Shown here: positions 1 through 26,590 of the stretch, one piece after another | Layout of the letters: each line of letters opens with the position of its first letter | How positions within the stretch are numbered: the first letter of the stretch is position 1 | NCBI RefSeq assembly: GCF_902729405.1 | Contig: NZ_LR746496.1 | Coordinates: 3,782,001-3,846,000 of the forward strand | DNA: 64,000 nucleotides | Reading direction: 5' to 3' | Source of the DNA: Acididesulfobacillus acetoxydans | Lineage (GTDB): Bacteria > Bacillota > Desulfitobacteriia > Desulfitobacteriales > Desulfitobacteriaceae | Program-made: the position numbers and the translations under genes | The notes under the pieces: model-generated | What the model was told of the DNA's origin: nothing | The model's input: only the letters and a program-made list of their open reading frames with translations | The model's database searches: none

Positions 1-114
1 CCAACGGCTGTGCCTTTTCCCCTTGATCCCATTCAGGTGATCCCTCATGTCTTTCCGCTCATTGTCGTAATTGGAGAAAATCGACGTACCGACTGTCGTG
101 ATGATCCTTTTCAT
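1..114 (-). CDS. CARF-domain CRISPR accessory protein, N-terminal 38 codons only
   Basis: Reading leftwards from an ATG at 114, the protein begins MKRIITTVGTSIFSNYDNE and is cut by the window edge after 38 codons. The hydrophobic strand followed by TVGTS-I/L-F-x-N-Y is the hallmark start of CARF domains of the APE2256/Csm6/Csx1 type, which bind cyclic oligoadenylates made by Cas10. The ATG overlaps the cmr3 stop codon in an ATGA arrangement, and GGAGG lies just upstream, so it is translationally coupled to the type III-B operon. The effector domain, if any, is outside the window, so it could be a Csm6/Csx1 ribonuclease, a ring nuclease or another CARF protein. cmr4-cmr6 would be expected further left. 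Confidence 0.7.
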   Translation of the reverse strand, partial: MKRIITTVGTSIFSNYDNERKDMRDHLNGIKGKRHSRW

Positions 115-1196
115 GTGCTCACTCCTCCTACCAAAACCGTACCAAACCCTTCCCGGCTATAGGAATTCTCCTCCATCGGCCTATAGTGAAAAATATCCTG
201 CACCTGTTCCGGATCCCCGTCCAGCAGTTCGAAACAGTAAACACTACCGGCAGGCACCGCCCTTTTCATCGGTTTCGGGCTATTTTCCTTTATGTTAAAG
301 CCGCCTACCGAAACATACTTGTCAATGGCCGCAGTTAATAACCTAAGGGACAAACCCCGGTAGTTCCCAGTTAAATCCTTTTCATTCAGCCATTCCGGCA
401 GCCACCCGTTGGCTAAAACCGCCGGAGTCAGCAAATAGAGCTTAAAGCGTTTCTCCCCGAACGGCGCCGGTTGGGGAAGCCACTTCCGCTCGATCGTCTC
501 GTAGCCAGCCACCTTACCTTCCCCGCCTAGCCTGATAAATCCCTTGTTCGGCAGTTCCAAACCTTCATAGTCCACCAGGAAAGAGGTCTCCTTCGTCGCT
601 AAACCACTACCACGGTCCGGCGCAAGGCGCTTCATCCCTATGCGGTAAAGTTTGTGCCCTTCCGCCCGACGGTACTGACGGTCTAACGTAATTCCTATCT
701 TCGGCTCCTCCGTCACAAACTCCGATATCATGCGGTAAGGGAGCGCCTCCTGTGACCCGGAGAGGTAGTCTATAAATGTCAGGCGTTCGAGCAGTGCTCC
801 GCTCAGCGTCTCGGCTTCCCGACCTTCGGGTACGGTTAAAACCTGCGGTAGAAAATAGTTGGAAGACCTCCCGGCCGGAGACAGTTGCAAGGGATATGCC
901 CTTTGGACCTCCGTCTCTTCTTTGTCCTTCACGACATCCAGCGGGCAAGGGAAGTAAATTGTTTCCCCATTCATGAGAAGGATTGAGCGGATGCGCAAAT
1001 TGAGAGTAGGATCCTTATCCGTAGTCGCATTCGGTAGAAAGGACGGATTTTCGGCAAAAAAAGCCGTGCGCAAAGCCCCATAAAAAACAGAAGGGAACGG
1101 CGGAAAAAACCCTTCCGCCCAAAAATCCTCTCCCATCGTAAAAGGCTTACCGTCACGAAAAAAGAGAGGATCAAGCGCCTTGATTTTTAATAACAC
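111..1196 (-). CDS. cmr3: Type III-B CRISPR RAMP protein Cmr3
   Basis: A 361-residue protein of usual Cmr3 length. It begins MLLKIKALDPLFFRDGKPF, matching the Cmr3 signature (L-F-R-D-G-[KR]-P-F near the N-terminus), and has the following F-x-PFPS-x-x-GALR segment around residues 32-43. Cmr3 is the Cas5-like RAMP subunit that caps the crRNA 5' handle and contacts Cas10 in the Cmr interference complex in the cytoplasm. The gene starts inside the 3' end of cmr2 (26-bp overlap) and ends overlapping the following CARF gene, so it is part of one tightly packed leftward operon. No defects are visible. Confidence 0.9.
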   Translation of the reverse strand: MLLKIKALDPLFFRDGKPFTMGEDFWAEGFFPPFPSVFYGALRTAFFAENPSFLPNATTDKDPTLNLRIRSILLMNGETIYFPCPLDVVKDKEETEVQRAYPLQLSPAGRSSNYFLPQVLTVPEGREAETLSGALLERLTFIDYLSGSQEALPYRMISEFVTEEPKIGITLDRQYRRAEGHKLYRIGMKRLAPDRGSGLATKETSFLVDYEGLELPNKGFIRLGGEGKVAGYETIERKWLPQPAPFGEKRFKLYLLTPAVLANGWLPEWLNEKDLTGNYRGLSLRLLTAAIDKYVSVGGFNIKENSPKPMKRAVPAGSVYCFELLDGDPEQVQDIFHYRPMEENSYSREGFGTVLVGGVST

Positions 1197-2949
1197 GCGG
1201 TACCGCCTCCCTGCTCAAAAAGCGTACGACTTCGAGAAAATCGAGGAAACTATCCAGACGTTTAAGGCGGATATAATCCCGGGAGAGCACGTTCCACAGC
1301 AAATCACTTCGGGTCCTTTTGTCTTGTTCCGCCCCTGAATAGGACCGAAGGAGCAACCGTCTCAGCTCACTCCGAACCATCTCGTCAAGATGTCCCGAAG
1401 TGTTTTTGGGGTCGTCCTGTTCTTGGCTCAGGGGACGAAATTCCCTGCCGAAGATCGTGATAAAAGAGTCCGAAAAATCCTCATCGAGATTTTTCAGGAT
1501 CACTTGAATATCGTCGGTAAGCCAAGTCTCGTCTCCCGAACGCCATGGGCCCACCGTTTTAACTGTTTCACCGGAATGTTTTACAACCGCCAGTCCTAAG
1601 GCGTCCTTCCCGCTCTCAGGCTCCTTCGCTTCTTTTTCCATTCGGCGCGCCCAGTTCAGAGCTATACCCAAAGGGGTCTTATAATGGGCGATTGCCACGC
1701 CGGCTGAAAAAGTTAACTTATCAGGACTGTAAGCGGAAAAATCCAATCGGTCGAATTCGCTTCTTAACGCTTTCAGGATCTCCATTAAAGAGGACAGGTT
1801 GACCAGTCCGAGAAAATCGTCCCCCCCGGCATAAACCGTCACTCCCCGCGAATTGACGAGTATATCTCTCGCGGCTCGGCGAGCGAACTGAGACAGCGCC
1901 AGGCTCAACTCGCGATGAAAATCCCGCAGGGAAACCCCTGGCGTCAGCCTTTGCCCGGACAGCCATTTACCCATGCTATCCCCGTCGAAAACGAGAATGG
2001 CATAGTAGGGGGAAAATCTAATCTCATAACGTTTCAGACCGGTATAGACGCCCCAAGCGGCCGCCCAGTCATTCGCCGCCACCGGGCTCGGCGGAGAGGG
2101 CATTTTTCCCTGTGGATAAGCGCCTATCTCTTTGAAGTAAAAAACCAGCTCGTCATCAAAATCCTTTTCCACTTGCTCTGCCAGCGCAGCATCTTTGTCC
2201 GCTAACCTGGCATACGCGTCACTTAAGGCGATTCGGCAAGTCGAGGGAAAGGAGTTCCCCCGCTCCGCCCCGGAAGCTTGATCCCGCAGGTACAACTCCG
2301 CGCAACGTTTGATAAACCCGACTGCCCCAAGAGCTTCCCCCTCGGCCATGTACTTCGCAGGTACATGCGAAGGCAGCTTCAGTGCAGATTTGGAGAGGTA
2401 CGCCGGAGGTCTCCCCTTACTCCGATAGAACAAAGCGGTTTGCTCTCCGGTCAGCGAACATTTTCGTCCGGGCTCCGACGACGACTGCTTAAAGGGACGG
2501 ACGCTTTTGGCTTGTCCGAGAAGACGCTCAACCGACCGGTACGCTTTTTCATAGCCGCACTCCAGGGAAGAGAAGGCCCAGAAAAAGCGGAAGTAATCTT
2601 CAGTCTGCTGCCGGACACCCCCGGGTTCCGGTAAATTAAGCGTGTCTAGAATAACTTCGGCGATCCGGCGCACCTCCGAGCGCAGGTCTTCTTCCAGCCG
2701 CTCACCGATTTCTCTCATCGATTCATCATCTTCACCCTCAAGCACTGCCAAGAACCGGTTCGGCAAGAACTCCATCTCCGGCAAAGGGAAAACAATCTGT
2801 CCCTGATAGCGCTCTTGAACGGTATGCAGGCACCGGCGGCAAAAGTGAGAGAGGAGGGCGCTGCCGGCGCACAGATCTTGAGTCTTGCGCGCTTGGGCTA
2901 TGAACAATTGCACCGGTGTGACAGTAAACAAAAATAAATACTCTTTCAC
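1171..2949 (-). CDS. cmr2: Type III-B Cas10 subunit Cmr2, lacking the N-terminal HD domain
   Basis: A 592-residue large subunit of the Cmr complex. It begins directly with the first Palm-type segment (LFLFTVTPVQLFIAQARKTQ, residues 5-24), which is typical of HD-less bacterial Cmr2. The catalytic Palm shows FDGDSMGKWL (321-330) and the intact cyclase motif GGDD at 375-378, so synthesis of cyclic oligoadenylate upon target RNA binding is expected. There is no HD nuclease motif, so ssDNA cleavage by Cas10 is not predicted. The zinc-ribbon position near 164 (KCSLTGEQ) keeps only one cysteine. The start overlaps the cmr1 stop by 4 bases. Two CARF proteins in the window are the obvious signalling receivers. 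Confidence 0.92.
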   Translation of the reverse strand: MKEYLFLFTVTPVQLFIAQARKTQDLCAGSALLSHFCRRCLHTVQERYQGQIVFPLPEMEFLPNRFLAVLEGEDDESMREIGERLEEDLRSEVRRIAEVILDTLNLPEPGGVRQQTEDYFRFFWAFSSLECGYEKAYRSVERLLGQAKSVRPFKQSSSEPGRKCSLTGEQTALFYRSKGRPPAYLSKSALKLPSHVPAKYMAEGEALGAVGFIKRCAELYLRDQASGAERGNSFPSTCRIALSDAYARLADKDAALAEQVEKDFDDELVFYFKEIGAYPQGKMPSPPSPVAANDWAAAWGVYTGLKRYEIRFSPYYAILVFDGDSMGKWLSGQRLTPGVSLRDFHRELSLALSQFARRAARDILVNSRGVTVYAGGDDFLGLVNLSSLMEILKALRSEFDRLDFSAYSPDKLTFSAGVAIAHYKTPLGIALNWARRMEKEAKEPESGKDALGLAVVKHSGETVKTVGPWRSGDETWLTDDIQVILKNLDEDFSDSFITIFGREFRPLSQEQDDPKNTSGHLDEMVRSELRRLLLRSYSGAEQDKRTRSDLLWNVLSRDYIRLKRLDSFLDFLEVVRFLSREAVPRVIKNQGA

Positions 2950-3857
2950 GTTTCCCCCGCTCCCCCCAGAATCGCTGCTCGAAATTCCTCTCTTTTATCG
3001 GCCGTTGGCTTTTCTTTTTTCGGATCAAAGACCGGATGAAGTGAAGTAATCACCGGCCAGGTGATAGCGCCCCCCCGCACGATAGAGACATATTCGGGGG
3101 AGGCCAGGCGCCCTCTCGGCCCGCCCATGCCCGTATAACCGCAGTCATTGCCGTGTGAACTGGACCCAACCGTCGTGAGCAGCACATCAAGATTCCTCGT
3201 ACCTTCCCCTATCCTGATTTCCTCAACATAAGGATAATGAGCGGAACACTTTTCCCGCAGTCTGATGATTTGATCACTCTCCCCGTATCTGCCCCCGGAG
3301 AGAAGATTCATTCGGTCTAAAACCGCCTTCCGAAGAGAAACCCGTTCTGCCAAATTCAGAAGCTCGGAAGCCTTTCCATTGCAGGCCATGATTTGGAAAC
3401 ACCCAAAACCCCTCCGACTTCTCTTTCCCACGCCCCCCAGCAAGGCAGAGAGCTCAACCAGTGCCCGCAAGTGATCCGGCGAGAATCCCTGCGGCAGGTC
3501 TCGGTAAGACAGAATGAGTTGAAACGAATGGTTAACAATGGCCTTCACTTTCGGTCGCCTCTGCCCACGATACGTCGGAAGGTCGTGGTGGGGCAGAAGA
3601 GACTTCATCACCGGCCCAAAAGCGCCGCTCTTTATACGGAGAGAAAAGCTGCTCCGGCCTTCCCCAGTACCCGTTCCGCCGAAAATTTCTCCCTCCCTTC
3701 TCCTTAGCTCCTGTATATCGTCCTCCGCCTGCACGGCCCGCCACCAAAACCGTAGCATTCCTTTAAAGGAGGGGGCGCGAAGTTCCGGCAAAGCGGACCC
3801 TGCTCCGTAAAGGAACAAGGGAGACACCGTCCGGTATTGGAAATCAAGAATGGCCAA
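2946..3857 (-). CDS. cmr1: Type III-B CRISPR RAMP protein Cmr1
   Basis: A 303-residue protein beginning MAILDFQYRTVSPLFLYGAG and containing P-S-F-K-G-M-L-R-F-W-W-R (residues 29-40) followed by E-x-E-I-F-G-G-T-G. This set is diagnostic of Cmr1, the Cas7-like RAMP subunit at the end of the Cmr backbone that holds the target RNA near the 3' end of the crRNA. It is the first visible gene of the leftward operon cmr1-cmr2-cmr3-CARF and overlaps cmr2 by four bases. The gap upstream toward the array contains no further cas gene. A second, damaged cmr1-like gene lies at 16531-17259. Confidence 0.9.
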   Translation of the reverse strand: MAILDFQYRTVSPLFLYGAGSALPELRAPSFKGMLRFWWRAVQAEDDIQELRRREGEIFGGTGTGEGRSSFSLRIKSGAFGPVMKSLLPHHDLPTYRGQRRPKVKAIVNHSFQLILSYRDLPQGFSPDHLRALVELSALLGGVGKRSRRGFGCFQIMACNGKASELLNLAERVSLRKAVLDRMNLLSGGRYGESDQIIRLREKCSAHYPYVEEIRIGEGTRNLDVLLTTVGSSSHGNDCGYTGMGGPRGRLASPEYVSIVRGGAITWPVITSLHPVFDPKKEKPTADKREEFRAAILGGAGET

Positions 3858-4878: not shown

Positions 4879-7800
4879 AAGCCAATTCCTCATAGGCAGG
4901 CTATCGGCCAGTCGCGGTTGTAATTGACCAGGGAGCAGGCGGAGGTTTCAATTCCTCATAGGCAGGCTATCGGCGGAATGACACTGGAACAATTCCGCGC
5001 GTATGAGCGGTTTCAATTCCTCACAGGCAGACTATCGGCAATGGAAGATATTCGGAATGCGTTTGGATCCGAAAGTTTCAATTCCTCATAGGCAGGCTAT
5101 CGGCGATACGCGGGGATGGGTAAGATACACGGGGGTGAGAATGTTTCAATTCCTCATAGGCAGGCTATCGGCCGTCTTCGGCTACACCCCCTTTAAGTGC
5201 TCCCATTTGTTTCAATTCCTCATAGGCAGGCTATCGGCCGCCGGGACGAAGGCGGGATGCGATCTGTCCCACGGTTTCAATTCCTCATAGGCAGGCTATC
5301 GGCATCTATTTCCAAGATGAGGAAGGGACCTTTCTTAAGGTTTCAATTCCTCATAGGCAGGCTATCGGCCCGTAGATGACTCCGCCGACTTCGACGGTTT
5401 CTCCGAGTTTCAATTCCTCATAGGCAGGCTATCGGCGTCACAGGGTATACGAGGTCCGCCAAATGTATGACTGTTTCAATTCCTCATAGGCTCGGCGTTA
5501 TAGTTTCTCCAGGCGCTAATGATGTAACATTAGTTTCAATTCCTCATAGGCAGGCTATCGGCGGAATTTGCCTGAGATTGCCAGTGACTGGATAGGCAGT
5601 TTCAATTCCTCATAGGCAGGCTATCGGCTTCAGGATGCTGTGGAACGTAAGAATGCCAGTTTGGGTTTCAATTCCTCATAGGCAGGCTATCGGCAAATTT
5701 CGATGCTGGAGAAGTGTTTGAAAAGGCATGTTTCAATTCCTCATAGGCAGGCTATCGGCCTTCGGTTGTGAGACGCTGGAAAAGGAGGGTTTTCATGGTT
5801 TCAATTCCTCATAGGCAGGCTATCGGCGATTCAAGAGTGAAGATTGATGAATCGAGGACCACGGTTTCAATTCCTCATAGGCAGGCTATCGGCAAATTCT
5901 CCCGCGCTTCCCTATATCGTGCCAGTTTGTTTCAATTCCTCATAGGCAGGCTATCGGCAGGTCTATGGCCCGGTACAAGCGGCCCGTATGAGAACAGTTT
6001 CAATTCCTCATAGGCAGGCTATCGGCAGTTTTTGTGATTCTTCTGACAGTTCCCGGGCTTTAGTTTCAATTCCTCATAGGCAGGCTATCGGCGGGTTGGA
6101 CCATGACACTGAAATTTTTCGCGAATTGGTTTCAATTCCTCATAGGCAGGCTATCGGCTTGGCCCGTCCTGGCAATCGGCCTGGGTATCATGGGTTTCAA
6201 TTCCTCATAGGCAGGCTATCGGCGACCCCGAAACCGAAGAACTGCTGCTGCCGGTCTTGAGTTTCAATTCCTCATAGGCAGGCTATCGGCGGGGATGAAA
6301 GCGGGACCCCGAGTTGAGAAAGGAATGTTTCAATTCCTCATAGGCAGGCTATCGGCCCATGTGGGAAACGGATGTCAAGGGCGTTCTCGGCGTTTCAATT
6401 CCTCATAGGCAGGCTATCGGCAGAGCCACGGAAACGAGGGAGATGGGTATATTATACGTTTCAATTCCTCATAGGCAGGCTATCGGCTTCTCTTAGTTTA
6501 TCTTGCCGCAACCGGAAGGTTGCGTTTCAATTCCTCATAGGCAGGCTATCGGCGCGGCCCGAAGGTTGACGATGAGCTTTTTGATTTGGTTTCAATTCCT
6601 CATAGGCAGGCTATCGGCCTCCGACAGTGACGGGGTTGGCGTTAGCGTTGGGATTGTTTCAATTCCTCATAGGCAGGCTATCGGCGGCGTGCAGTTTGTC
6701 TGAGCGGCTACGTCCACCATATGTTTCAATTCCTCATAGGCAGGCTATCGGCTTCGGACCCCCTGGGCAGAAAGCTCTTTGAAAACCGCAGTTTCAATTC
6801 CTCATAGGCAGGCTATCGGCCCGCTCTGACGAACCGGGCCTCTTCGATTCGCCCTAGTTTCAATTCCTCATAGGCAGGCTATCGGCGGCGTTACACTCGC
6901 TGATACGGCCTGTTGACTCTCTGAGTTTCAATTCCTCATAGGCAGGCTATCGGCTAGAAATCGTTTGTGTTGCATACTTTCCAAACACCTGTTTCAATTC
7001 CTCATAGGCAGGCTATCGGCGGATTAAAGAGCTCCTCCCAGAAATTTACAAGACCGAGTTTCAATTCCTCATAGGCAGGCTATCGGCGCAGGTCAAACGG
7101 AACTCGAATATCTCACTTATCGGTTTCAATTCCTCATAGGCAGGCTATCGGCTTTAAGAGTATGCTATTATAATGTTAAAGACAAATAGTTTCAATTCCT
7201 CATAGGCAGGCTATCGGCATTAACAAAACATTAAAGTCTAGGCTTAGAGCCTTGGGTTTCAATTCCTCATAGGCAGGCTATCGGCGCATGGAAAAAACTG
7301 TGGCATACTGGATGGACGTCGTTTCAATTCCTCATAGGCAGGCTATCGGCGAAGAAACAAGAACAGACTGCGCAAAGCCTGGCTGAAGTTTCAATTCCTC
7401 ATAGGCAGGCTATCGGCTCCGTAGTTCTCGTTTTCCGGACCGCCGAAGAGGTGTTTCAATTCCTCATAGGCAGGCTATCGGCAGAATTCGCCCTTCTCGT
7501 TTCTCTCGATTGTTCCAGTTTCAATTCCTCATAGGCAGGCTATCGGCCGTACGCAATCCGGTCCGCTTGGCTTGACGTTAGTTGTTTCAATTCCTCATAG
7601 GCAGGCTATCGGCAGGAACGGCGCAGCCGACACCCAGATGATTCTCGCGTTTCAATTCCTCATAGGCAGGCTATCGGCGTCAAAAAATGAAGGGAGGAAG
7701 TCCCCGCTGGACTTGTTTCAATTCCTCATAGGCAGGCTATCGGCATTTTTCCTCCGCCCATGCCGCGCGGAATTGAATATGTTTCAATTCCTCATAGGCA

Positions 7801-10800
7801 GGCTATCGGCCTGGAAGACCGGCGTCAGGTCCTGAATCGTGAGATGGTTTCAATTCCTCATAGGCAGGCTATCGGCATTTCCGGTCTGTATAAGAGAATG
7901 GGAATATGGCTAGTTTCAATTCCTCATAGGCAGGCTATCGGCGGCTTTCTAGCCTTCTTTTTTTTGCCTTCATATGTGAGTTTCAATTCCTCATAGGCAG
8001 GCTATCGGCTGAGGCGGGGAATGTCTACCTTTCTAATGCTTAAAAAGTTTCAATTCCTCATAGGCAGGCTATCGGCTTAGAAATAACAGGAAATCCGCAT
8101 TCTCTGATGACTTGTTTCAATTCCTCATAGGCAGGCTATCGGCCTTATGGAGATCGATGAAATCCTGAAATCGGCTGAAGTTTCAATTCCTCATAGGCAG
8201 GCTATCGGCTCACGGGTACACCGCCAGAAGAACACCCGAACACCGAGTTTCAATTCCTCATAGGCAGGCTATCGGCGAGCACTTACCGGCACTCCCTGGC
8301 CGTACTTTAGGTGTTTCAATTCCTCATAGGCAGGCTATCGGCCAAAGACTTGTCCACCGTAAATATCCAGAAGTTATAGTTTCAATTCCTCATAGGCAGG
8401 CTATCGGCCTGTGTCGTGTTTCACTTGGCCACCTGGCCATGTTCCGGTTTCAATTCCTCATAGGCAGGCTATCGGCAATCCGCATCATGCTCTCGGCTAG
8501 GCAGTCACGGGGTTTCAATTCCTCATAGGCAGGCTATCGGCAGGTTGGACGCCATCTATGCTCAAGCAAGTCTATATAAAGTTTCAATTCCTCATAGGCA
8601 GGCTATCGGCCCAAGGCCGCGGGGAAGGCGCGGTGGGTATTAATGACGTTTCAATTCCTCATAGGCAGGCTATCGGCATAATTCTATGAAAAAAGCAGGC
8701 GGCATTATATCTCGTTTCAATTCCTCATAGGCAGGCTATCGGCGGAGAGTCAGCTCATCCCCTGGGAAGCGGGGAAGCAGTTTCAATTCCTCATAGGCAG
8801 GCTATCGGCAGGGGCGCTACGAGAAAAAGAAAGAGCAGCTATTCGAGTTTCAATTCCTCATAGGCAGGCTATCGGCGGTGCGGCATCAGGAAAGCCTACG
8901 TAGGCATCGGTGGTTTCAATTCCTCATAGGCAGGCTATCGGCCGGTCGTAGGCGCTCCGCTTACCGTAGCTCCGACAGTTTCAATTCCTCATAGGCAGGC
9001 TATCGGCGGCCGGAATTGAGTGGAAGGGACGGTTTTATCCTCCAGTTTCAATTCCTCATAGGCAGGCTATCGGCCACCGGGTTAACCTGAGCCGGGGTCT
9101 CGGTCGCCGGTTTCAATTCCTCATAGGCAGGCTATCGGCCTCGGGTGTCGTGGCCGTCGGTCGATACCTGGGGTAGTTTCAATTCCTCATAGGCAGGCTA
9201 TCGGCGGCTACAAAAAGGTGTACTGGTGCACCAAGATGGAGTTTCAATTCCTCATAGGCAGGCTATCGGCGTCCGACATGAGCTCGCGAAGAAAGGGGCA
9301 CTCGGTGTTTCAATTCCTCATAGGCAGGCTATCGGCGGTGCCACCGTCACGAGATTCCCATCTGTCGTGTTGTGTTTCAATTCCTCATAGGCAGGCTATC
9401 GGCGGAGTCCGTACGGCTGGGCGTTCCGGCTCCGGTACCGTTTCAATTCCTCATAGGCAGGCTATCGGCTTCCAAACAAATCAACTTCCCTTGTTGCCAA
9501 TGCTCGTTTCAATTCCTCATAGGCAGGCTATCGGCAAAATGATGAGATCAACTTAATTGATCTCATTGTGGGTTTCAATTCCTCATAGGCAGGCTATCGG
9601 CCAAACGCGCTTCTGACGCGGGCTGGGGGCTGTTTTAGTTTCAATTCCTCATAGGCAGGCTATCGGCGAGGGAAGTTTTAAACTATTTGGATTAGTGGTT
9701 AACAGGTTTCAATTCCTCATAGGCAGGCTATCGGCGGGCTACTGAAAGCCCAAACCGGTGGCGCGCCGTCTCGTTTCAATTCCTCATAGGCAGGCTATCG
9801 GCTGCGAAGGCCAAAGAACCTTCTGTTGTGTTTTGATGGTTTCAATTCCTCATAGGCAGGCTATCGGCTTCTATGCGTCCTCTAACGGTTATCGGCGCGC
9901 ATACAGTTTCAATTCCTCATAGGCAGGCTATCGGCGAATCGCGTAAGTCTCGCTGTCGTTGAAGCATACAAGTTTCAATTCCTCATAGGCAGGCTATCGG
10001 CGCTTCATTTTAATTTAGTCCCCCTTTGTATTGGGGGAGTTTCAATTCCTCATAGGCAGGCTATCGGCCCCATTTTCAGGTAACGATGACGGATTGTCCT
10101 GCCGGTTTCAATTCCTCATAGGCAGGCTATCGGCACGCAATCTGTACTAGACTTTTTGAGGGAAAAGTGAGTTTCAATTCCTCATAGGCAGGCTATCGGC
10201 CATTAATGCCGCTTTACCTACGCTAATGGGGAATATGTTTCAATTCCTCATAGGCAGGCTATCGGCTGAAACATTGCGGTCCCGCCCGCGCGTGGCAAGA
10301 TTGTTTCAATTCCTCATAGGCAGGCTATCGGCGGATTAGATACAGGGATGTTGTCTTGGGATTCTATTGTTTCAATTCCTCATAGGCAGGCTATCGGCTA
10401 CTGGCTTCAACATCATTTTCGAAATTCATGAAGTGTTTCAATTCCTCATAGGCAGGCTATCGGCTACGGATGATATAGACCTGGTCTATCCTGAATCCGG
10501 TTTCAATTCCTCATAGGCAGGCTATCGGCTTCCTTCCAATTCATAGTCATTTTAAACCAACCTCCGTTTCAATTCCTCATAGGCAGGCTATCGGCTTTTT
10601 TCCTTCTCGAAATATTTCAGAACTGGCACGAGTTTCAATTCCTCATAGGCAGGCTATCGGCGTATCTCAAAATGAGACACCGTGTACATGATACGTAGTT
10701 TCAATTCCTCATAGGCAGGCTATCGGCGACGGAAAACCTTTTCTTGCGGAAATTGACATTCCGGTTTCAATTCCTCATAGGCAGGCTATCGGCGAAGACA

Positions 10801-13800
10801 TATTGACGGTTTTCATCCGCAATGATATTGTTTCAATTCCTCATAGGCAGGCTATCGGCCCTGTTCTGTCTGACCTGCATACCATGCGTGACTACGTTTC
10901 AATTCCTCATAGGCAGGCTATCGGCTTTACCCACTTCCAGAGGCATTCCTCCATAAGATCTTGTTTCAATTCCTCATAGGCAGGCTATCGGCGGGGTTAT
11001 GAATCTGGGGAGGGACTGTTAACATGGGTTTCAATTCCTCATAGGCAGGCTATCGGCAGTATAAACCCTATTGCATTTGTCAGTCATATGCGTTAGTTTC
11101 AATTCCTCATAGGCAGGCTATCGGCAAACATTCTTTTTACGGCTGAATGGTGGTTCGGCTTGTTTCAATTCCTCATAGGCAGGCTATCGGCGGGGCTGGC
11201 CATCCTCAGCCTGGAATCCCGAGGCGCGGTTTCAATTCCTCATAGGCAGGCTATCGGCAAGCTACAGAGTTCACACGCTTTTTCAAGCGTGCAGAGTTTC
11301 AATTCCTCATAGGCAGGCTATCGGCCGGCAAAGGTGTTGACAGGAAGTAAAAGATATGGTAGAAGTTTCAATTCCTCATAGGCAGGCTATCGGCATCTAC
11401 TTCCAGGATGAGGAAGGGACTTTCCTTACTGTTTCAATTCCTCATAGGCAGGCTATCGGCTTTGACATTGTAAATTCTGAGATTGATCGCCTTGTCATGT
11501 TTCAATTCCTCATAGGCAGGCTATCGGCACTTAGGCTCATCAGTTCCTAAAGTTATATCCTTCCAGTTTCAATTCCTCATAGGCAGGCTATCGGCTCTGA
11601 TACAAGTATACATCAACTTATGTGTAAATGGTTTCAATTCCTCATAGGCAGGCTATCGGCTTTCCGGTCTGTATAAGAGAATGGGAATATGGCTAGTTTC
11701 AATTCCTCATAGGCAGGCTATCGGCGATATTCGGAAAAAGGAATAATATTCTAGAGCATTGGGTTTCAATTCCTCATAGGCAGGCTATCGGCTGCTCAAA
11801 ACTGACAGAGAGATGAAAGCGCGGGACTAGTTTCAATTCCTCATAGGCAGGCTATCGGCTCGTGGATCTGCCGGATTGTGTCAGCATTTTCCGAGGTTTC
11901 AATTCCTCATAGGCAGGCTATCGGCTTCCTTCTCGTCTTCGAGGAAATCTTGCATAAGATCAGTTTCAATTCCTCATAGGCAGGCTATCGGCGAAGGCTT
12001 TCTAGCCTTCTTTTTACCCTCATATGTGAGTTTCAATTCCTCATAGGCAGGCTATCGGCCTCATTTTCTTTTCTCCTTCTGGAAGGCGGTTGGCGTTTCA
12101 ATTCCTCATAGGCAGGCTATCGGCCCTTTGAGGCGCTCGTACAGGGCGAGCGCGAACAGTGTTTCAATTCCTCATAGGCAGGCTATCGGCTTTAGCGTAG
12201 AAATTTCTGCGTCCCTCTTCTTCGTGTTTCAATTCCTCATAGGCAGGCTATCGGCTGCTCAAAACTGACAGAGAGATGAAAGCGCGGGACTAGTTTCAAT
12301 TCCTCATAGGCAGGCTATCGGCGTAGCACTCCATCCAGACTGCATGGATGGATGGTGCTCGTTTCAATTCCTCATAGGCAGGCTATCGGCTATTCTGACA
12401 TTTGTCTTCGGGAATTGCCATTCCCGGTTTCAATTCCTCATAGGCAGGCTATCGGCGCGATGCTCTCGACGATTGCCCCGAATGCGACGGTAGTTTCAAT
12501 TCCTCATAGGCAGGCTATCGGCCCCTCTGTGAGTGGGGTCATGTTTCCGTCCCACTCAGGTTTCAATTCCTCATAGGCAGGCTATCGGCGCGGCTACTAT
12601 GAGGTCACGCGGGAAACCGACCGCGGTTTCAATTCCTCATAGGCAGGCTATCGGCTGGGTATCCTTGGGGCTCTTGCTGCTTGGCGGGTTACGGTTTCAA
12701 TTCCTCATAGGCAGGCTATCGGCGGTGAATAGTGGGGAAGAACAATTCAGCGTGATCCGTTTCAATTCCTCATAGGCAGGCTATCGGCTCGCGACGGAGT
12801 GCAGGGCGCGAAATTCAGCCTCACGTTTCAATTCCTCATAGGCAGGCTATCGGCTTGACGAGTATCTTGATATTGACGCACAGTGGATGGTTTCAATTCC
12901 TCATAGGCAGGCTATCGGCAGCGGCTACTATGAGGTCACGCGGGAAACCGACCGCGGTTTCAATTCCTCATAGGCAGGCTATCGGCACGGCCATTCTTGA
13001 TTCCTCCTTTAAATTCGGGTTTCGTTTCAATTCCTCATAGGCAGGCTATCGGCAGGAGTAGATCATTTCCCATGACTTATTTCCCATCTGTTTCAATTCC
13101 TCATAGGCAGGCTATCGGCGGGTCCAGAGAGGGGAGGTGGCTTGCGTGTTTCTCTTGTTTCAATTCCTCATAGGCAGGCTATCGGCTCAAACTTCAATTT
13201 TAACTTTTGCCGTTTGTTTAATTTGTTTCAATTCCTCATAGGCAGGCTATCGGCCGTTCGTCCAAATGCCCTCCCAGTCCTCAGGATGCTGTTTCAATTC
13301 CTCATAGGCAGGCTATCGGCTATTTCTCGGTAACAGACTTTTCTGTGGCCAAGATCGGTTTCAATTCCTCATAGGCAGGCTATCGGCCATTTAAATTTAT
13401 AAGCTTTTCCTCCTTCTTTTTTATAGTTTCAATTCCTCATAGGCAGGCTATCGGCTATCGATAATATTCCAAGGATAATAAGGGGAAGGAGGTTTCAATT
13501 CCTCATAGGCAGGCTATCGGCATTCAATCTGCTGTCGATAATAAAGACGCAAGTTTAGCGTTTCAATTCCTCATAGGCAGGCTATCGGCTCCTCATTTTC
13601 AGGTAACGATGACGGATTGTCCTGCCGGTTTCAATTCCTCATAGGCAGGCTATCGGCCATCTTCGTCCTCCTTTTGTGCTAAATATTCATTGTTGTTTCA
13701 ATTCCTCATAGGCAGGCTATCGGCGGTGAGAAAATGAGACGTGTCTATATTGCCTACGGCAGTTTCAATTCCTCATAGGCAGGCTATCGGCGACGCAGAC

Positions 13801-14390
13801 GCGATTTATGAACGTGCCTGGTCGGAAGTTTCAATTCCTCATAGGCAGGCTATCGGCGTTCCCGGCGTACTTCCCGGGGGCACGCCGTAGTTGGTTTCAA
13901 TTCCTCATAGGCAGGCTATCGGCCAATATCTTTTAAAACCTGTTCCGGCAAATTTTTTGTGTTTCAATTCCTCATAGGCAGGCTATCGGCTTTAGCGCAA
14001 TTTCTTATTTCTTGGTGTTCGGCGCGTGTTTCAATTCCTCATAGGCAGGCTATCGGCGACCACTGAGCCAAACATCCCCTTCTTGGTTGAGTTGTTTCAA
14101 TTCCTCATAGGCAGGCTATCGGCCTGTGCATTTTGTTGATTAGATTTTGTCATATTTGATTGGTTTCAATTCCTCATAGGCAGGCTATCGGCCCTTCTTT
14201 TTTATATAAAGAGAGACCAGAGATGTTTGTTTCAATTCCTCATAGGCAGGCTATCGGCTTGCATTTAAATCAAATGCGTGCTAAAATAAGAGAGGTTTCA
14301 ATTCCTCATAGGCAGGCTATCGGCTCGATAACTGGAATATCCTTTTCGTCTAGAACGGCAGTTTCAATTCCTCATAGGCAGGCTATCGGC
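4879..14390 (-). CRISPR. Very large CRISPR array, 144 repeats / 143 spacers by hand count
   Basis: Repeats of 30 nt read GTTTCAATTCC...GGCTATCGGC on the plus strand, with a unit length of 65-69 nt and spacers of about 34-39 nt. On the minus strand the repeat ends ATTGAAAC, the usual 8-nt 5' handle of type I-B/III crRNAs, so the array is transcribed leftwards. The leftmost unit (4879-4908) is degenerate at its outer end, as expected at the leader-distal end. The rightmost unit (14361-14390) is perfect and abuts the leader. Variants seen: substitutions in the unit at 5010-5039 and a 6-nt internal deletion in the unit at 5473-5496. Several spacers are duplicated or near-duplicated. All short reading frames across this block are translations of the repeat and are not genes. 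Confidence 0.99.
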
Positions 14391-14542: not shown

Positions 14543-14806
14543 TCAAATTATAAGGTCCTGCCCCCCCTTACGCAACCCCATAATCTCCCTGTCAGTATAC
14601 CTCGTTGTACGTGACGTATAGATAATGACAGAATCCGCGTCCGGGTCGATGATTTCCTCCAATTCCATCTTAAGCTTTTTTAAACCCGCATCTCCTATAT
14701 CACCTTCTAAAACGGAGTTTTGCACCCAGTTAAGGTACTTTCGACAACGTTTCAGAACTCTGGTCACTCTCTTTTCACCTACATCGTAAACGAGGATTAC
14801 ATACAT
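14543..14806 (-). CDS. cas2: CRISPR adaptation protein Cas2
   Basis: An 87-residue protein beginning MYVILVYDVGEKRVTRVLK, with the YD at the end of the first beta strand and the ferredoxin-like pattern of Cas2, plus the conserved second half ending in YTSRTTRYTDRE. Cas2 dimerises and bridges two Cas1 dimers during spacer integration. It is the last gene of the leftward I-B operon, 68 bases after cas1, and its stop is next to the leader. Confidence 0.97.
   Translation of the reverse strand: MYVILVYDVGEKRVTRVLKRCRKYLNWVQNSVLEGDIGDAGLKKLKMELEEIIDPDADSVIIYTSRTTRYTDREIMGLRKGGQDLII
14547..14575 (-). promoter_or_regulatory. Candidate array promoter inside the end of cas2
   Basis: On the minus strand TTGCGT (14575-14570) and TATAAT (14552-14547) are separated by exactly 17 bases, which fits a sigma-70/SigA promoter with a perfect -10 and a half-matching -35. 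The predicted start would be near 14540, giving a leader transcript of about 150 nt before the first repeat. It overlaps the last codons of cas2. Confidence 0.45.
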
Positions 14807-14874: not shown

Positions 14875-15870
14875 TTACCACTGCGTCACGAACGGTTCGT
14901 ACAGCGTTTCTCCCATCAAGTGTTTCTCCAGTTTATAGAGTTCAAGGCGCATTAGGCGCCGGTATGAAACGGGACTACCGATATCCCGATGATTGATCGT
15001 TGCCTTGAGCCGGTTTTCCAGTTCTTCGACAAAGGCGCGCCTGCCGCTCTCCTTTAACAACAGCCCGCCTGCCTCCTTTTTGAAGTCCTTCTTGCTAACC
15101 ATCTTCTTTCCGATCAGGGTGAAAATGGTTCGGTCGATGATGATCGGTTTGAAAATCTCCGCCACATCAAGATTCAGAGTGAAGCGGCGAAAGTTCGTCG
15201 TATGCAAATAGCCTATCCTTGGATCCAGGTGAGTGTGGTAGATCTCGCTGAGAACCGCAGAGTATATTATTCCGTTACCGAAGCTGATCAGTGTATTCAT
15301 TTCGTTTTCTGGAGGTCGCTTCGAACGTCCTTCAAACGCAAAGCCTGGGTTTCCATGGATAGCGTCAAAGGCCCGATAGTATTGGTCCCTGATATTTCCT
15401 TCGATCGCCATAAGCTGTGAAATATCCGCAGTACCCCCTATCCGACCGGACAACTGTTCCACCTCCGCTAACCTTACGGCAACATCTTTCTCCCGATTTA
15501 GATAGTACTTCAATACTTGCCGGATATTGCGTGCCGCACCCTGGATAAATTGTTTAGCCAGGTACAACCGCGCTTCAGCCTTAAGATAGTGTTCAGCTTG
15601 ACGCAAAATCATATAGCCCGAATTATAATGTTCCCCTGGATAAAATGTTCCGGAGTAGTACCCATAATAATTGAAATAGTGGATTAGAATCTCTTTCTGA
15701 GCGCAAAACTCAAGAAATCGTTTGTTAATGTCCACCTCTCCGAGAACCATGAGTTCGGCGGTGTCTTCAACCGGGATGTATTTATGCTCCCCTTCCTCAC
15801 TCTCGAAGTAAATCGTATTGTCCTTACGACGTAACTGTCCATTCGAAAAGATATATAATGTTTTTCTCAC
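14875..15870 (-). CDS. cas1: CRISPR integrase Cas1, type I-B
   Basis: The frame extends to a GTG at 15891, but the start at GTG 15870 (MRKTLYIFSNGQL) is preferred: GGAAGGGG lies about 5 nt upstream and the sequence matches the usual type I-B Cas1 beginning. This gives 331 residues. The C-terminal domain carries the conserved metal-binding region with AIEGNIRDQYY and LGYLHTT-like segments (here IGYLHTTN). It catalyses spacer integration together with Cas2 at the leader end of the array. It follows cas4 with 27 bases between the stop of cas4 and this start. Confidence 0.96.
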   Translation of the reverse strand: MRKTLYIFSNGQLRRKDNTIYFESEEGEHKYIPVEDTAELMVLGEVDINKRFLEFCAQKEILIHYFNYYGYYSGTFYPGEHYNSGYMILRQAEHYLKAEARLYLAKQFIQGAARNIRQVLKYYLNREKDVAVRLAEVEQLSGRIGGTADISQLMAIEGNIRDQYYRAFDAIHGNPGFAFEGRSKRPPENEMNTLISFGNGIIYSAVLSEIYHTHLDPRIGYLHTTNFRRFTLNLDVAEIFKPIIIDRTIFTLIGKKMVSKKDFKKEAGGLLLKESGRRAFVEELENRLKATINHRDIGSPVSYRRLMRLELYKLEKHLMGETLYEPFVTQW

Positions 15871-15897
15871 GTTAGCCCCTTCCGTTAACACCCCAAC

Positions 15898-16419
15898 TCA
15901 AGCCCAACACAACTCCTTGTACGCACAGTTCCTGCACAACGCAATTTTCTTCACTTGTGGAGGCTTGTCCAAGCCTAAAATTCGTTCAATTTGCTTTAGG
16001 GCACAAAATAGCTCCTCTTCCAGCGAGTCCGTTAAGATAACCTCTTCTTTCTTCTTCTCCTTGGGAAACAGCAACTCGCCTCTGGCCACAATCCCTCGCT
16101 GCTTCAGTTCCCATAGGTAAAACGCCAACTGCATCTTAGCGCTTCTTGCATATCTGGAACTCTTTTTCACCTCACCCACCACCAACCCATCTTTATCCTG
16201 CCGGACGATATCTAGCTTGATATTGCCTACCGAGATTTCTTTCTCTTTGTCCCGTACATAAGTGTGTTCGTGAATGAACCTGCCAACATCCATATTGGGA
16301 TCGTCCTCATCCGGATTGATCTGGTGGGCCATGAGCCAAACTTCCCTTGGACAACAGAAATAGTACCAGACAATTGTACCCGTAATATTGAAGCCAGTGG
16401 GGTTCGGGTTCATCTCCAT
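15898..16419 (-). CDS. cas4: CRISPR-associated Cas4 nuclease
   Basis: A 173-residue protein with the four-cysteine iron-sulfur arrangement of Cas4: CCPREVW near residue 23 and CRNCAYKELC close to the C-terminus. Between them are the RecB-like nuclease motifs DIVRQDKDGLVVGEVKKSS and the Q-x-x-x-Y (QLAFYLWEL). Cas4 trims prespacers and selects PAM ends for Cas1-Cas2. It lies directly upstream of cas1. The 111-base gap upstream to the broken cmr1-like gene shows no gene. Confidence 0.96.
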   Translation of the reverse strand: MEMNPNPTGFNITGTIVWYYFCCPREVWLMAHQINPDEDDPNMDVGRFIHEHTYVRDKEKEISVGNIKLDIVRQDKDGLVVGEVKKSSRYARSAKMQLAFYLWELKQRGIVARGELLFPKEKKKEEVILTDSLEEELFCALKQIERILGLDKPPQVKKIALCRNCAYKELCWA

Positions 16420-17324: not shown

Positions 17325-19136
17325 TTAGGACAGGTAGAACATCTCCCCCTCAACAAAAGGTACCTGTTTCTGTTCATCCGCAAGGCGCCTATCGGCAAAT
17401 GCCACCTCATGGACTAAGTAATCCCTATCCCTTAGGGAACTTGCCACTTCCTGCACCGCGTATTGCAACGCTGTCGTCCCCCCGGTAATGTTGACAAAGA
17501 TCTCCACATTTGGGAGAGACTCAACCGCTCGTGAAATCTCTGCTTCTATCTGCGGAAGTTCTTGAAAACATGTGAACGGATCTTCTACCACGATTTTCTG
17601 CAGAGTCCCTTGATATTCGGCGTGTTCGGTAATCCGCGGCAAGTCGGCATCCGCTTCTTGGGAGGTAAGGACGAGAACGTGCTCGGGTGCCAATCTTCGC
17701 AACGCACTGAACAATGGTCCCGCAGATAAGCCTAACGGTGATAAGAGCAGGCGCGCAGCCTTCTGCATTTCCCCCGTCGCCCTCATTGGCCATGTTGGAT
17801 CCTTTCCTGCCTGCATCTCGACGATGCGTTCAAATTTGGTCAGTATCGTGCCTAACACAGTTTCGAACTTGTGGGCACGGTGATTCTTACACGTGTATTC
17901 CGCATGGTCCAAGTCGTTACGATAATCCATAATACCATCCAGCAACTTAGCCACCTCGAGTAATTCCAAATCATTACGCATGGCATCCACTATCCACGAT
18001 TGCGATTTTATGGCGTTTTCCCATCGTTCTGCCGCAATGTTCTGAGCCAAAACCTTTGCCGCTTTGGTGATAAGCTCACGTTCCCGGCCACATTCCGCCT
18101 TGAGACCGTGTTCCTCATATCCAACAGCTGAACACAGGAAAGAAATCACGTTCTCCCGCAGAATAGTCCAGGCTTGCTGTATTTTATCGTGGTCGAGACA
18201 CCAGCGCACCAGCGCGTTGGCCTTTTGAATATCTGTACCGGCCAACATATTGGCCATCTTACCCCGAACCACGTCCAGGATAGGCAGCAAGGCTTTAATA
18301 TAAGGCACCGGTTCATCCTTGTTCATCACTGCATTTTGCGATATGCCGGGAAGTGTGTCCCTGAGAATTGTCCGGGTTCGGCACGTAGCGGCTTGCTGAG
18401 AAAATTCATGCAGGTTCTTGAGCAACCGGTTTAGCAGATGAAGGTTCTCATCCGTGGTCTTTAAGCTGGCATTAACTGGAGAAAGCTCGACCCGGGCTAT
18501 GCCATAAAGATCCTTGGTATCCCCAGCCTTAACAAAATGGTCTGCGGCTGCGGACCAGTCCATCAGCCTAACAAACTCTTTCAGATCAATTACGTCCACC
18601 AAACGTTCTCTCAGCGGCATATTCTCCACTTCGTTCCTGCGCCCCAGGGCCTCGAAAGCTCCGTAGACGATTCCCTCGATCTTGATCTTCCGAAAAACAC
18701 GGGCATAGTTTAAAAGCAGTAAGCTCAAAAACGGCAGGCTTCGATAGGAGTGGGTGATATCAAAAATGACCTGATCCCCGACGTTGACATTGCGCTCCAC
18801 TACTTCAAAGATTGACCACATCTGGTCTATCGTGAAACCTTCGCAAACGTCCACTGTGCGCACCCGAATTCCCGAGTACGCCTCCTGTGACAACTGCTCA
18901 GTCAGTTCTTCCTCAAGCGGCCGTTCCCCGTTCGGTCCATTTCTCGACCAGTTTCTCTCTCGCGCTTCTCGTGTAAGAAAAATTATGATCTCCCGTTCTT
19001 GAGTCAGATCCCCTAGGAACAATTCCACTAACGCGGTCTGGATGAAACGCCGTGGAGCAGCCTCTCCGACCTGCGTTCGATAAACACAAGGCAAATAGTT
19101 ATTCGTGCCGAGAAAGCTCATCAGTTTTAAACCCAT
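17325..19136 (-). CDS. CARF-HEPN effector of the TM1812/Csx family with a second C-terminal CARF-like domain
   Basis: 603 residues. The N-terminus (KLMSFLGTNNYLPCVYR, 4-20) and the segment FDITHSYRSLPF (125-136) match the TM1812 (TIGR02221) CARF proteins. The middle is helical, with a HEPN ribonuclease signature R-N-D-L-D-H at 406-411 (R-X4-H). Residues about 485-600 form an alpha/beta segment beginning EHVLVLTSQE and including VNITGGTTAL (548-557), a second CARF-like nucleotide-binding motif. The predicted role is an RNase activated by cyclic oligoadenylate. It is placed between cas3 and the broken cmr1-like gene in the I-B operon. The start is supported by GAGAGGTGG seven bases upstream. 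The role of the second CARF-like domain (binding or self-limiting cleavage) is my inference. Confidence 0.85.
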   Translation of the reverse strand: MGLKLMSFLGTNNYLPCVYRTQVGEAAPRRFIQTALVELFLGDLTQEREIIIFLTREARERNWSRNGPNGERPLEEELTEQLSQEAYSGIRVRTVDVCEGFTIDQMWSIFEVVERNVNVGDQVIFDITHSYRSLPFLSLLLLNYARVFRKIKIEGIVYGAFEALGRRNEVENMPLRERLVDVIDLKEFVRLMDWSAAADHFVKAGDTKDLYGIARVELSPVNASLKTTDENLHLLNRLLKNLHEFSQQAATCRTRTILRDTLPGISQNAVMNKDEPVPYIKALLPILDVVRGKMANMLAGTDIQKANALVRWCLDHDKIQQAWTILRENVISFLCSAVGYEEHGLKAECGRERELITKAAKVLAQNIAAERWENAIKSQSWIVDAMRNDLELLEVAKLLDGIMDYRNDLDHAEYTCKNHRAHKFETVLGTILTKFERIVEMQAGKDPTWPMRATGEMQKAARLLLSPLGLSAGPLFSALRRLAPEHVLVLTSQEADADLPRITEHAEYQGTLQKIVVEDPFTCFQELPQIEAEISRAVESLPNVEIFVNITGGTTALQYAVQEVASSLRDRDYLVHEVAFADRRLADEQKQVPFVEGEMFYLS

Positions 19137-19207: not shown

Positions 19208-21559
19208 TTAGAATATCCTCGTCTCCCCCTCCACTGTCAGCCCGCATCGCCTGGAATAGTATCCGGAGCGAAGGAGCCAGAGGTCGTTGACATACTCGTC
19301 CGCGATCTGGCGGGGATGAAACCCCGGCCTGGCGAGGACATTGATTGAGATCATGGCAATTCTTGAAGCCAAAGCTCTCCAAGCTTCCCTGCGTTCCCAT
19401 CGGTCCGCCACCCGGCGCGCTGCGTCCATCTCCCCTTGCAGGCTTGGATCTTGCTCCAATACCAGAAACGTAAATTGGGCCTTCTCTTTACCTCTCAGAA
19501 GCTCCCGGACAGGAACCCCCTCCTGCCAGCATAAAAAGCGCTGCAGATGCTCTCCTCCACTATTCTTGCGCTTGGACAATTCCAGAAAATAATGCTCGGT
19601 GTATGGCAGCACATCTTCTTCCACCACCGTTTCCAAACCGAGCAGAAGTTCACGGGTGACCTGCAAATGCACAGGATCGTAAATCATGCTCGAATAACGT
19701 TTGTCGTTTTCATTCACAATATCCACAACCCGAACCACACCGCGAGGCTTCAAGCCTTCCCGATTACACCTTCCGGCAACCTGAATCAAGCTGTCCAAAG
19801 GGGCGAAGTCGCGGATCACCATGTCCATGTCAATATCCACCCCCGCCTCAATAGACTGAGTTGAAACCACGATACATGGCTTCCCCTCCTTAATCCGCTC
19901 CACGGTAGCCAATCGGTCTTTCGGAGTCACGTCTGCACTGATGAAAAAGAGCGGCGTCTCTTCTTCCGCCTCTCCCCATCCTTCACAAAGTGCCTGCCAT
20001 ACTTTTCGGGCGCTTGCTCTGGTGTTGAGCGTGATTAAAACCCTTTTTCCCTCCCCCAGCCACCCGGGCAGTTCCTCCTGCATTTGATCGCAGAAAACAT
20101 CCAAACTCAATACCTCCTCCAGATGCAACTGAAGTTCATACCGCGAAAAGGCAGAAAAATAGGAAGCGTAGTCCGTAACCAGCGGAGTCTGCCCTGAGAC
20201 AAAGGCCGGCAACGTTGCCGACATCAGCAACAGCTTGGTACTGCCTAAGCTCACCAAACCTTTCAGTACCCGGTCCAGTGGCTGCCATAGCTGGCAGGGA
20301 AGGGACTGAACCTCGTCCATAACAATAAGTGCATCGCAGAGGTGATGAAAGCGCATTTGATAGCGGGCTTTTGGCTCAAGCAAACTCATGAGAAACTGAT
20401 CGTAAGTGGTAATAATCAGTTCACTCCGCCAAGTATCCACAAAAAACCTTTCTTCTCCGGCTTCCAGACCTTCGGCATAACGCCGGTCGGCTAGCGAATG
20501 ACTGGTCAGGAGCCAATGACCATCCCGCTCAATCCCACCTGCAGACAGAAGCTTGGCATACTCTTTGACCGTTTGGTCAATTACCGACAGCAACGGTAAA
20601 ACAACGATGATTTTAGGGGGATTTTCTCCCATCTTTCGAGCTTGCTCCTGCATACTGAGTGCCCACGTCGCGGCCAACAACGTCTTTCCACATCCTGTCG
20701 GGGCGGTCAAACTAAAGATCCTGTCCCCGGAATGGTGCTCCATGGTCCCCACGGCCTCTTCTCTCATTCTCCGGCGCAACCGGTTCGTCAGGGTATCCTG
20801 CGGTTTCCCCAGGCATCGCTCAACCCACTGCGGCTCCCATCGCCGTGCCTCCCTTTTAAGATAATTTTTGGGTTCTGCCACCGCTAAAAGCGCCTTGTCA
20901 GCCTCCAGAAGCAAGGAAAACAGCAATTGAGTCTTTAGGCGAAACAGTACTGCTTCACCCTCTCCCAGCTTTTGCAAGGCCGCGATCAGAGCGTCGTCGA
21001 GATAACGCCTCATTCTCTGGACAAAACGCCCCGGCTCTTGACGTATGCTCCCCCAATCCAACTCGGTCAGAGGGAGGCCCGTCTCTTTCTCCAGTTCCGG
21101 CACATTCAAAGTGAGCAGCAGCTTCTTCAGTACCCGGGCAGTCTCACCGCCGGCAAAATTGTCCAGATCATGATCGGAGCAGGAAACTGCTCCGATCTTT
21201 CTTTCCGGAAACGTCGGTAAAGAGCCGTGGTGTCCCCGCACCACCGCGGCCAAAGCGAGTGCCTCAAGGGCCTCCCATCTTTCCGCTTCACTCAAGCATA
21301 GGGTCAACAGCAGGGAAAGGGGAGTATGAGCTTTTTCCCTGGGATCACCCTCGAAGTGCAAAGGATCCTGAATGTAGGTCTGAAAGGCCGCAGAGGCTTT
21401 GCCAAGGTCGTGGAAACGCGCCAGTTTCGGCAGCCATCCGGCCACACTGTCCCTCACCGGCTTGGAATGCCACTGTTGCAGCGCATCCAGCCCCTGCTCG
21501 ACCTGCTCAATGTGTTCACGGAGTTCCAAGTGAGGATGTGAGTAAAGCGGCATACTCAT
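19208..21559 (-). CDS. cas3: CRISPR helicase-nuclease Cas3 (type I-B)
   Basis: 783 residues with an N-terminal HD nuclease domain (RFHDLGK, about 48-54; RGHHGS further on), followed by a superfamily 2 helicase: Walker A TAPTGCGKT, Walker B MDEVQSLP, motif III SATLP and motif VI QVAGRCNR. Cas3 is recruited by the DNA-bound Cascade and degrades the target strand. The ATG overlaps the cas5 stop as ATGA. Length and motif set are complete. Confidence 0.97.
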   Translation of the reverse strand: MSMPLYSHPHLELREHIEQVEQGLDALQQWHSKPVRDSVAGWLPKLARFHDLGKASAAFQTYIQDPLHFEGDPREKAHTPLSLLLTLCLSEAERWEALEALALAAVVRGHHGSLPTFPERKIGAVSCSDHDLDNFAGGETARVLKKLLLTLNVPELEKETGLPLTELDWGSIRQEPGRFVQRMRRYLDDALIAALQKLGEGEAVLFRLKTQLLFSLLLEADKALLAVAEPKNYLKREARRWEPQWVERCLGKPQDTLTNRLRRRMREEAVGTMEHHSGDRIFSLTAPTGCGKTLLAATWALSMQEQARKMGENPPKIIVVLPLLSVIDQTVKEYAKLLSAGGIERDGHWLLTSHSLADRRYAEGLEAGEERFFVDTWRSELIITTYDQFLMSLLEPKARYQMRFHHLCDALIVMDEVQSLPCQLWQPLDRVLKGLVSLGSTKLLLMSATLPAFVSGQTPLVTDYASYFSAFSRYELQLHLEEVLSLDVFCDQMQEELPGWLGEGKRVLITLNTRASARKVWQALCEGWGEAEEETPLFFISADVTPKDRLATVERIKEGKPCIVVSTQSIEAGVDIDMDMVIRDFAPLDSLIQVAGRCNREGLKPRGVVRVVDIVNENDKRYSSMIYDPVHLQVTRELLLGLETVVEEDVLPYTEHYFLELSKRKNSGGEHLQRFLCWQEGVPVRELLRGKEKAQFTFLVLEQDPSLQGEMDAARRVADRWERREAWRALASRIAMISINVLARPGFHPRQIADEYVNDLWLLRSGYYSRRCGLTVEGETRIF

Positions 21560-22284
21560 AAGAACATGATCACCTTTCCATCCACTTCATATCCTTCCGA
21601 GGTGCGCGTGGGAATGGGACGCCCATCCTTTTCCAGGACATAACCGTCATGGGTAAATACGCGGTCCGCTGTAACGGAACGGGGCATGCGCAGTAGATGC
21701 AGCGCCAGGTTCTTTGCCAGTACCTGAGGGACCTCAATTTCACCCTCTCCTTGCCGGATGACAGACGTTACGTCATAGAGCCCCGGCGGCAGGGGCTTGG
21801 CCGCAGCCGTACCGAGGTAGGTAATATCCGCCATCATCTCGGAAAGCCCCATACAAGGCTGAAAATACCAGGCCCGTTTCCTTACTCGCCGCTCAAACTC
21901 GGCCTGATGTGGCTGCGGTAAGGATACCCATAGTGTGTAGCTCGGGTTAAACAACCATTCTTGGTCAATTAGAGTCGCTTTTTCCGGTTTGGTCGTCTTC
22001 GTCTCAGTTTGCGACCGCCTGATCGTGTGTGGCAGCAGCTCCGGCGGATCCTTGCGCAGTTTGGCCTTGTGCCAAAACCCTTGGGGAACTTCACCCGTTA
22101 AAGCCACTTGGCAGGGTTCAAGCACAACTTGCGGACTGTCTTTAGCGAGGCCGAGCACGGCTCCGATCAAGCCAAGAATAACGGTTCGCGGCGGAATCGG
22201 ATAACTTAAAGCACTCGCTCCCGCTTCCGCGCGCAGGAAGTGCGCAAAGCGCCCATTCAGTTGGAAAGAAATCAATTCACTCAT
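21556..22284 (-). CDS. cas5b: Cascade subunit Cas5 (type I-B)
   Basis: 242 residues beginning MSELISFQLNGRFAHFLRAE, then YPIPPRTVILGLIGAVLGL, a classic Cas5 N-terminal RAMP pattern. Cas5 binds the crRNA 5' handle in the Cascade surveillance complex. It lies six bases after cas7 and overlaps cas3 by four bases. Confidence 0.95.
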   Translation of the reverse strand: MSELISFQLNGRFAHFLRAEAGASALSYPIPPRTVILGLIGAVLGLAKDSPQVVLEPCQVALTGEVPQGFWHKAKLRKDPPELLPHTIRRSQTETKTTKPEKATLIDQEWLFNPSYTLWVSLPQPHQAEFERRVRKRAWYFQPCMGLSEMMADITYLGTAAAKPLPPGLYDVTSVIRQGEGEIEVPQVLAKNLALHLLRMPRSVTADRVFTHDGYVLEKDGRPIPTRTSEGYEVDGKVIMFL

Positions 22285-26509: not shown

Positions 26510-26590
26510 CCCTTTCTCCCCCTTCCTTTTTTCTCTATCATCCTCTTTTCCGGGCACACCGAGTGCTTCTTGGCGTGGCAAGGCGTGATA

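Follow-up and report, generated by a model that had tools for sequence, protein, structure and literature searches.

Two spacers of the CRISPR array of Acididesulfobacillus acetoxydans, spacers 7 and 98, are probably independent captures of a single protospacer from diverged alleles, chosen through an adjacent YTA motif, apparently at the end of a gene, with mostly silent drift between the two captures. The array lies in a stretch of 64,000 nucleotides (contig NZ_LR746496.1, positions 3,782,001 to 3,846,000), the whole of which is referred to as the window.

Two spacers with the same boundaries

Spacer 7 is ATCTATTTCCAAGATGAGGAAGGGACCTTTCTTAAG and spacer 98 is ATCTACTTCCAGGATGAGGAAGGGACTTTCCTTACT; both are 36 nt long and are flanked by exact repeats on each side (Table 1). 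They are identical at 30 of 36 positions and have both boundaries in common. In an all-against-all comparison the pair reached an ungapped score of 26, whereas the top scores in three shuffled spacer sets were 12-13, and the similarity is therefore far above chance. The mismatches are found at positions 6, 12, 27, 30, 35, and 36 of the forward strand, corresponding to crRNA positions 31, 25, 10, 7, 2, and 1, respectively. In agreement with the sequence-only reading, which had given these coordinates, equal boundaries and the peptide IYFQDEEGTFL, frame +1 of the two spacers reads IYFQDEEGTFL(K/T). Its claim that the differences are synonymous except in the last codon was likewise borne out, as four of the six are silent and the other two both fall in the last codon.

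Table 1. Positions in the window of the array, selected spacers and cas genes.
Feature	Position	Strand	Remarks
CRISPR array	4879..14390	-	143 matches to 30-nt repeat, 142 intervals
Spacer 7 (older)	5304..5339	-	+ strand reads IYFQDEEGTFLK
Spacer 98 (younger)	11395..11430	-	+ strand reads IYFQDEEGTFLT; same site as spacer 7
Spacer 45	7877..7912	-	pairs with spacer 102 (11661-11695), 1 nt shorter at PAM-distal end
Spacer 46	7943..7979	-	pairs with spacer 107 (11993-12029); diverged, indel in T run; terminator-like
Spacer 78	10069..10104	-	pairs with spacer 131 (13590-13627): one SNP, 2 nt longer at PAM-distal end
Spacer 104	11793..11829	-	identical to spacer 111 (12256-12292)
Spacer 116	12590..12625	-	pairs with spacer 121 (12920-12956), 1 nt longer at PAM-distal end
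Spacer 128	13388..13425	-	right end overlaps spacer 140 (14193-14228) by 14 nt
cmr3 (type III-B)	111..1196	-	
cmr2/cas10 (type III-B)	1171..2949	-	
cmr1 (type III-B)	2946..3857	-	
cas2 (Cas2b)	14543..14806	-	
cas1 (type I-B Cas1b)	14875..15891	-	TIGR03641
cas4	15898..16419	-	TIGR00372
Csx1-like CARF-HEPN protein (type III ancillary)	17325..19136	-	
cas3 (HD and helicase)	19208..21559	-	
cas5b	21556..22284	-	
cas7b (Csh2)	22291..23277	-	
cas8b	23274..25337	-	NCBIfam weak; PADLOC Cas8b clear, 3e-29
cas6	25454..26581	-	

The array and its cas genes

The array has a repeat of 30 nt, GTTTCAATTCCTCATAGGCAGGCTATCGGC on the forward strand, with intervals of mostly 35-39 nt, and is located between a type I-B operon with cas1-cas2-cas4 on its right and a type III-B (cmr) operon on its left. 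Three features indicate that it runs from right to left with the young end on the right: the repeat read on the reverse strand ends with ATTGAAAC, the left, old edge has degenerate repeats (4879-4908 and 5010-5039), and the adaptation genes cas2, cas1b, and cas4 are situated past the right edge. Transcription of the array is hence predicted on the reverse strand; the leader is at the right, which makes spacer 7 older than spacer 98, the latter being younger by 91 positions in array order. In the interval 5437-5532 a truncated 18-nt repeat is present, probably due to a deletion that fused a repeat to the next spacer.

The type I-B effector set is complete (cas8b, cas7b, cas5b, cas3, and cas6), and its adaptation module, cas1b-cas2-cas4, adjoins the array. 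The type III-B set is also complete (cmr1-cmr6 including cas10), with cmr4-cmr6 following next after cmr3 outside the window (locus L141); the type III-B genes that were examined included none for adaptation. A protein encoded beside cmr4 (L141 18930-19949, reverse strand) shows weak similarity to CRISPR ring nucleases (NF040951, TIGR02619). Together with the Csx1-like protein, this ring-nuclease-like protein is consistent with cyclic-oligoadenylate signalling.

Six pairs of spacers from the same sites

The all-against-all spacer comparison revealed six same-site pairs, 7/98, 45/102, 46/107, 78/131, 104/111, and 116/121, and pair 7/98 is better supported as one of six cases than by itself. All six pairs are flush at the right end, i.e. 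the crRNA 5' (PAM) end, while the length differences and the 46/107 indel are located toward the opposite end. Five of the six pairs are not exact copies (SNP, indel or PAM-distal trimming), so that copying within the array does not explain these five; the sixth, 104/111, could be a copy made inside the array. The proposal in the sequence-only reading that one protospacer was acquired twice from diverged alleles is thereby strengthened, with the two acquisitions 91 positions apart and five further pairs, four of them inexact.

Pair 46/107 carries a hairpin (GAAGGCTTTCTAGCCTTC) with a T run after it, resembling an intrinsic terminator, and its two alleles are distinguished by SNPs and by an indel of 3 nt within the T run. 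This pair looks non-coding, which indicates that re-capture is not tied to conserved proteins. Furthermore, the four widely separated pairs are colinear, spacers 7, 45, 46, and 78 and their partners 98, 102, 107, and 131 following in the same order (5304-13627); the chance of such an order for four pairs is 1 in 24.

The adjacent motif

Spacers 42 and 16 match a congeneric genome (G398) at 31/36 and 33/38 positions, and both protospacers are preceded by 5'-CTA in crRNA orientation. In a control with reversed spacers over 3.1 Mb, the best match had nine mismatches. In the array itself, spacer 140 runs on with TAA past its AT-rich overlap with spacer 128, implying a 5'-TTA PAM for the latter. 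Spacer 57 has a weak match elsewhere in the family, likewise with TTA beside it, while a six-mismatch homologue of spacer 19 in G398 is flanked by CGG and not by YTA. The PAM is hence most likely 5'-YTA, on evidence that is thin (good matches of two spacers, a 14-nt AT-rich overlap and a further, weak match), with the CGG case dissenting.

Spacer 57 shows similarity to the start of a small membrane protein (MKKAGGIISLIAGIFGI) that occurs in two copies on contig L043 (G431:C93), and this protein is possibly a non-viral homologue of the spacer 57 target. Spacer 19 matches two neighbouring repeats in an element of G398 on contig C51 (L053 12268 and 12460, reverse strand), with 6 and 10 mismatches.

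Preferred site or chance

The pair number alone does not require that any site was preferred. With 143 spacers, six same-site pairs point to approximately 1700 effective sites; drawing 143 times from a pool of some 1700-2000 PAM sites, roughly as many as one 40-50 kb element has under YTA, is expected to yield this number of pairs. Chance re-capture could thus account for the pairs if a single lineage of elements, poor in PAM sites, was dominant, a reading that we regard as possible but doubtful. Random draws are expected to yield 1.0-1.9 overlapping pairs from different sites for every same-site pair, against which the six same-site pairs observed are accompanied by at most one overlapping pair (128/140). 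Under YTA this difference gives P values of 0.003-0.08, which vary with the cut-off for overlap and with the number of pairs taken as independent (six, five or four); with CTA or TTA as the only motif, the test carries little weight (P 0.03-0.34). Of the sequence-only suggestion of a preferred acquisition site, the excess of same-site over overlapping pairs speaks in its favour while the number of pairs fits chance, and we consider it plausible and modestly supported.

Coding reading of the site

In simulations of six random substitutions, one or no amino-acid change in frame +1 was obtained in 0.2-0.6% of cases, and in 1.6-3.2% when any open frame was allowed. The silent pattern is thus significant, yet not overwhelming, and its support for a coding site is modest. 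A frame on the complementary strand, (L/V)RKVPSSSWK-stop, overlooked in the sequence-only reading, is equally silent, since the wobble positions are common to both frames. Together with the value for all open frames, this leaves some room for a site that is not coding in frame +1, its silent pattern arising by chance or from the opposite strand, which we consider unlikely. The opposite frame has a stop inside the spacer, and a YTA motif would put another stop directly before it in spacer 98, leaving about 10 codons and arguing against that frame. Coding in frame +1 is likely, if not proven.

Should the YTA PAM be valid, the triplet after IYFQDEEGTFL(K/T) is TAA or TAG, an in-frame stop. The two spacers would then represent the last 12 codons of a gene with its stop codon provided by the PAM, a position that would explain both the common right boundary and the tolerated change in the last residue. 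The crRNA would in this case be antisense to the mRNA, the orientation needed by a type III effector. As TTA, CTA, and TCA are the reverse complements of the three stop codons, every gene end would offer a PAM-bearing protospacer with an antisense crRNA. That the array, if shared by the I-B and III-B systems, exploits gene ends as dual DNA- and RNA-targeting sites, with 7/98 as an example, nevertheless appears very improbable to us: a crude open-frame count from the PAM end showed no excess of gene-end spacers (87 of 143, versus 85 and 100 in the other two forward frames), which makes gene-end targeting unlikely as a general rule in this array.

Three of the mismatches, at crRNA positions 1, 2, and 7, are located in the usual seed region. 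A change in this region would help an invader to escape, and those observed here would aid escape from spacer 7, which with one pair is no more than suggestive.

Search for the source element

No protospacer of spacers 7 and 98 was found in the phage, IMG/VR, GTDB or relatives' sequences, and the source may lie outside these collections. Degenerate searches of IMG/VR for (I)YFQDEEGTFL gave no match, whether a stop was required after the motif or not. The relaxed pattern FQDEEGxF retrieved 39 IMG/VR loci, mostly belonging to one unrelated phage protein family and in none of them C-terminal, and the 33 loci from a GTDB-wide pattern search were ordinary bacterial proteins or chance matches. The motif was found in this array only, both among 74 genomes of the order with up to three mismatches and in a 398-genome sample of the phylum. 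Short tblastn searches of 14 relatives and INPHARED searches with spacers 7 and 98 returned matches at chance level; for all spacers, INPHARED gave one weak match (spacer 38, 88% over 34 nt, E 0.3). Eleven selected spacers had no match among plasmids, and no spacer matched approximately 2.4 Mb of the own genome or the rest of the window at nine or fewer mismatches. An IMG/VR scan for spacer 45/102 was negative, and weak matches of spacers 7, 23, 24, 40, 75, 76, and 95 in G398 were judged to be chance.

The two confident targets, of spacers 42 and 16, are located in integrated or plasmid-like elements of G398. One target region (contig C46) encodes a TraG-like coupling protein with phage-like replication genes and the other (C51) a serine recombinase, an actin-like protein and a DnaB_2-type protein; the targets of the array thus include integrated or plasmid-like elements. 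IMG/VR contained no or only distant relatives of the two regions. Hence, a virus as the source of 7/98, as put forward in the sequence-only reading, is an assumption that the searches did not support, and the conserved viral protein proposed with it rests on 11 codons with no gene found. Its suggestion to search phage genomes and metagenomes and to identify the gene and the PAM led to no gene; for the PAM, YTA is the most likely candidate, on the thin basis given above.

The two alleles might also derive from a site that is present in a single element as paralogous or repeated copies, captured at any two times. The double match of spacer 19 indicates that repeated protein stretches occur among the targets, and nothing specific argues against such a source, as the gap of 91 positions denotes two capture times and is compatible with alleles or paralogues; we nonetheless deem it quite unlikely. 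That spacer 98 is an old in-array duplicate of spacer 7, formed by slippage or recombination and later mutated, is hardly credible, although spacers that occur more than once in public arrays most often stem from duplication (695 of 805 candidates; PMC11472070), which may also apply to 104/111. The repeats between spacers 7 and 98 are nearly all identical, which makes six mutations confined to one spacer, four of them silent in one frame, implausible, and in four other pairs the differences (length, SNP or indel) are restricted to the PAM-distal side, a pattern that copying does not produce.

Discussion

For the independent capture of one protospacer from diverged alleles, we propose that Cas1-Cas2-Cas4 selected the 7/98 site on both occasions by one and the same PAM, most likely 5'-YTA, and measured off about 36 nt from there. 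Such PAM-anchored capture with a measured length would explain why the boundaries of 7 and 98 agree and why all six pairs are flush at one end. On the coding strand, the motif would probably be the gene's own stop codon (TAA/TAG), and the spacer would read ...IYFQDEEGTFL(K/T)-stop. The antisense crRNA could serve the type I-B effector, and perhaps the type III-B effector as well. Between the captures, the gene would have drifted mostly silently, with the C-terminal residue free to change.

Comparable systems are known. In Parageobacillus thermoglucosidasius a type I-B cas set and a type III-B system likewise occur in one genome, and its III-B arrays have 30-nt repeats and 35-39 nt spacers as found here (PMC10551041). 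In contrast to that organism, A. acetoxydans has one 142-interval array between both operons. The I-B PAM of P. thermoglucosidasius, with TTA best and CTA working (PMC10551041), was measured; ours, deduced from three to four cases, agrees with it. Arrays that serve both I-B and type III effectors and rely on a single adaptation module have been described and are common (PMC8482600). The arrangement resembles the one observed here, with I-B adaptation genes, I-B and III effectors and one repeat type between them; use of this array's crRNAs by Cmr is putative.

In Sulfolobus viruses, protospacers diverge under CRISPR pressure near the PAM and in the seed, as seen when older spacers are compared with later alleles (PMC6452263). 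The mismatches of 7/98 are similarly placed, but the Sulfolobus viruses were sequenced, whereas both alleles are known here only as spacers of one array. Directed escape is more than the single pair 7/98 can show.

The SpacerPlacer survey counted 8 reacquisitions among 24,090 spacers (PMC11472070), in which, as here, a site captured earlier was captured again. Spacers were labelled by identity in that survey, while the copies in our array differ by trimming or sequence, which suggests that diverged or trimmed copies may be missed when re-acquisitions are counted from identical spacers.

Repeated PAM-dependent acquisition from diverged alleles is in itself a known process, and the array is an unusually good natural example of it and not a new system. 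Its predictions are a YTA PAM and a gene ending in IYFQDEEGTFL(K/T) in a related element. With its time-ordered pairs from the same invader sites, the array would provide a small fossil record of invader drift between attacks.
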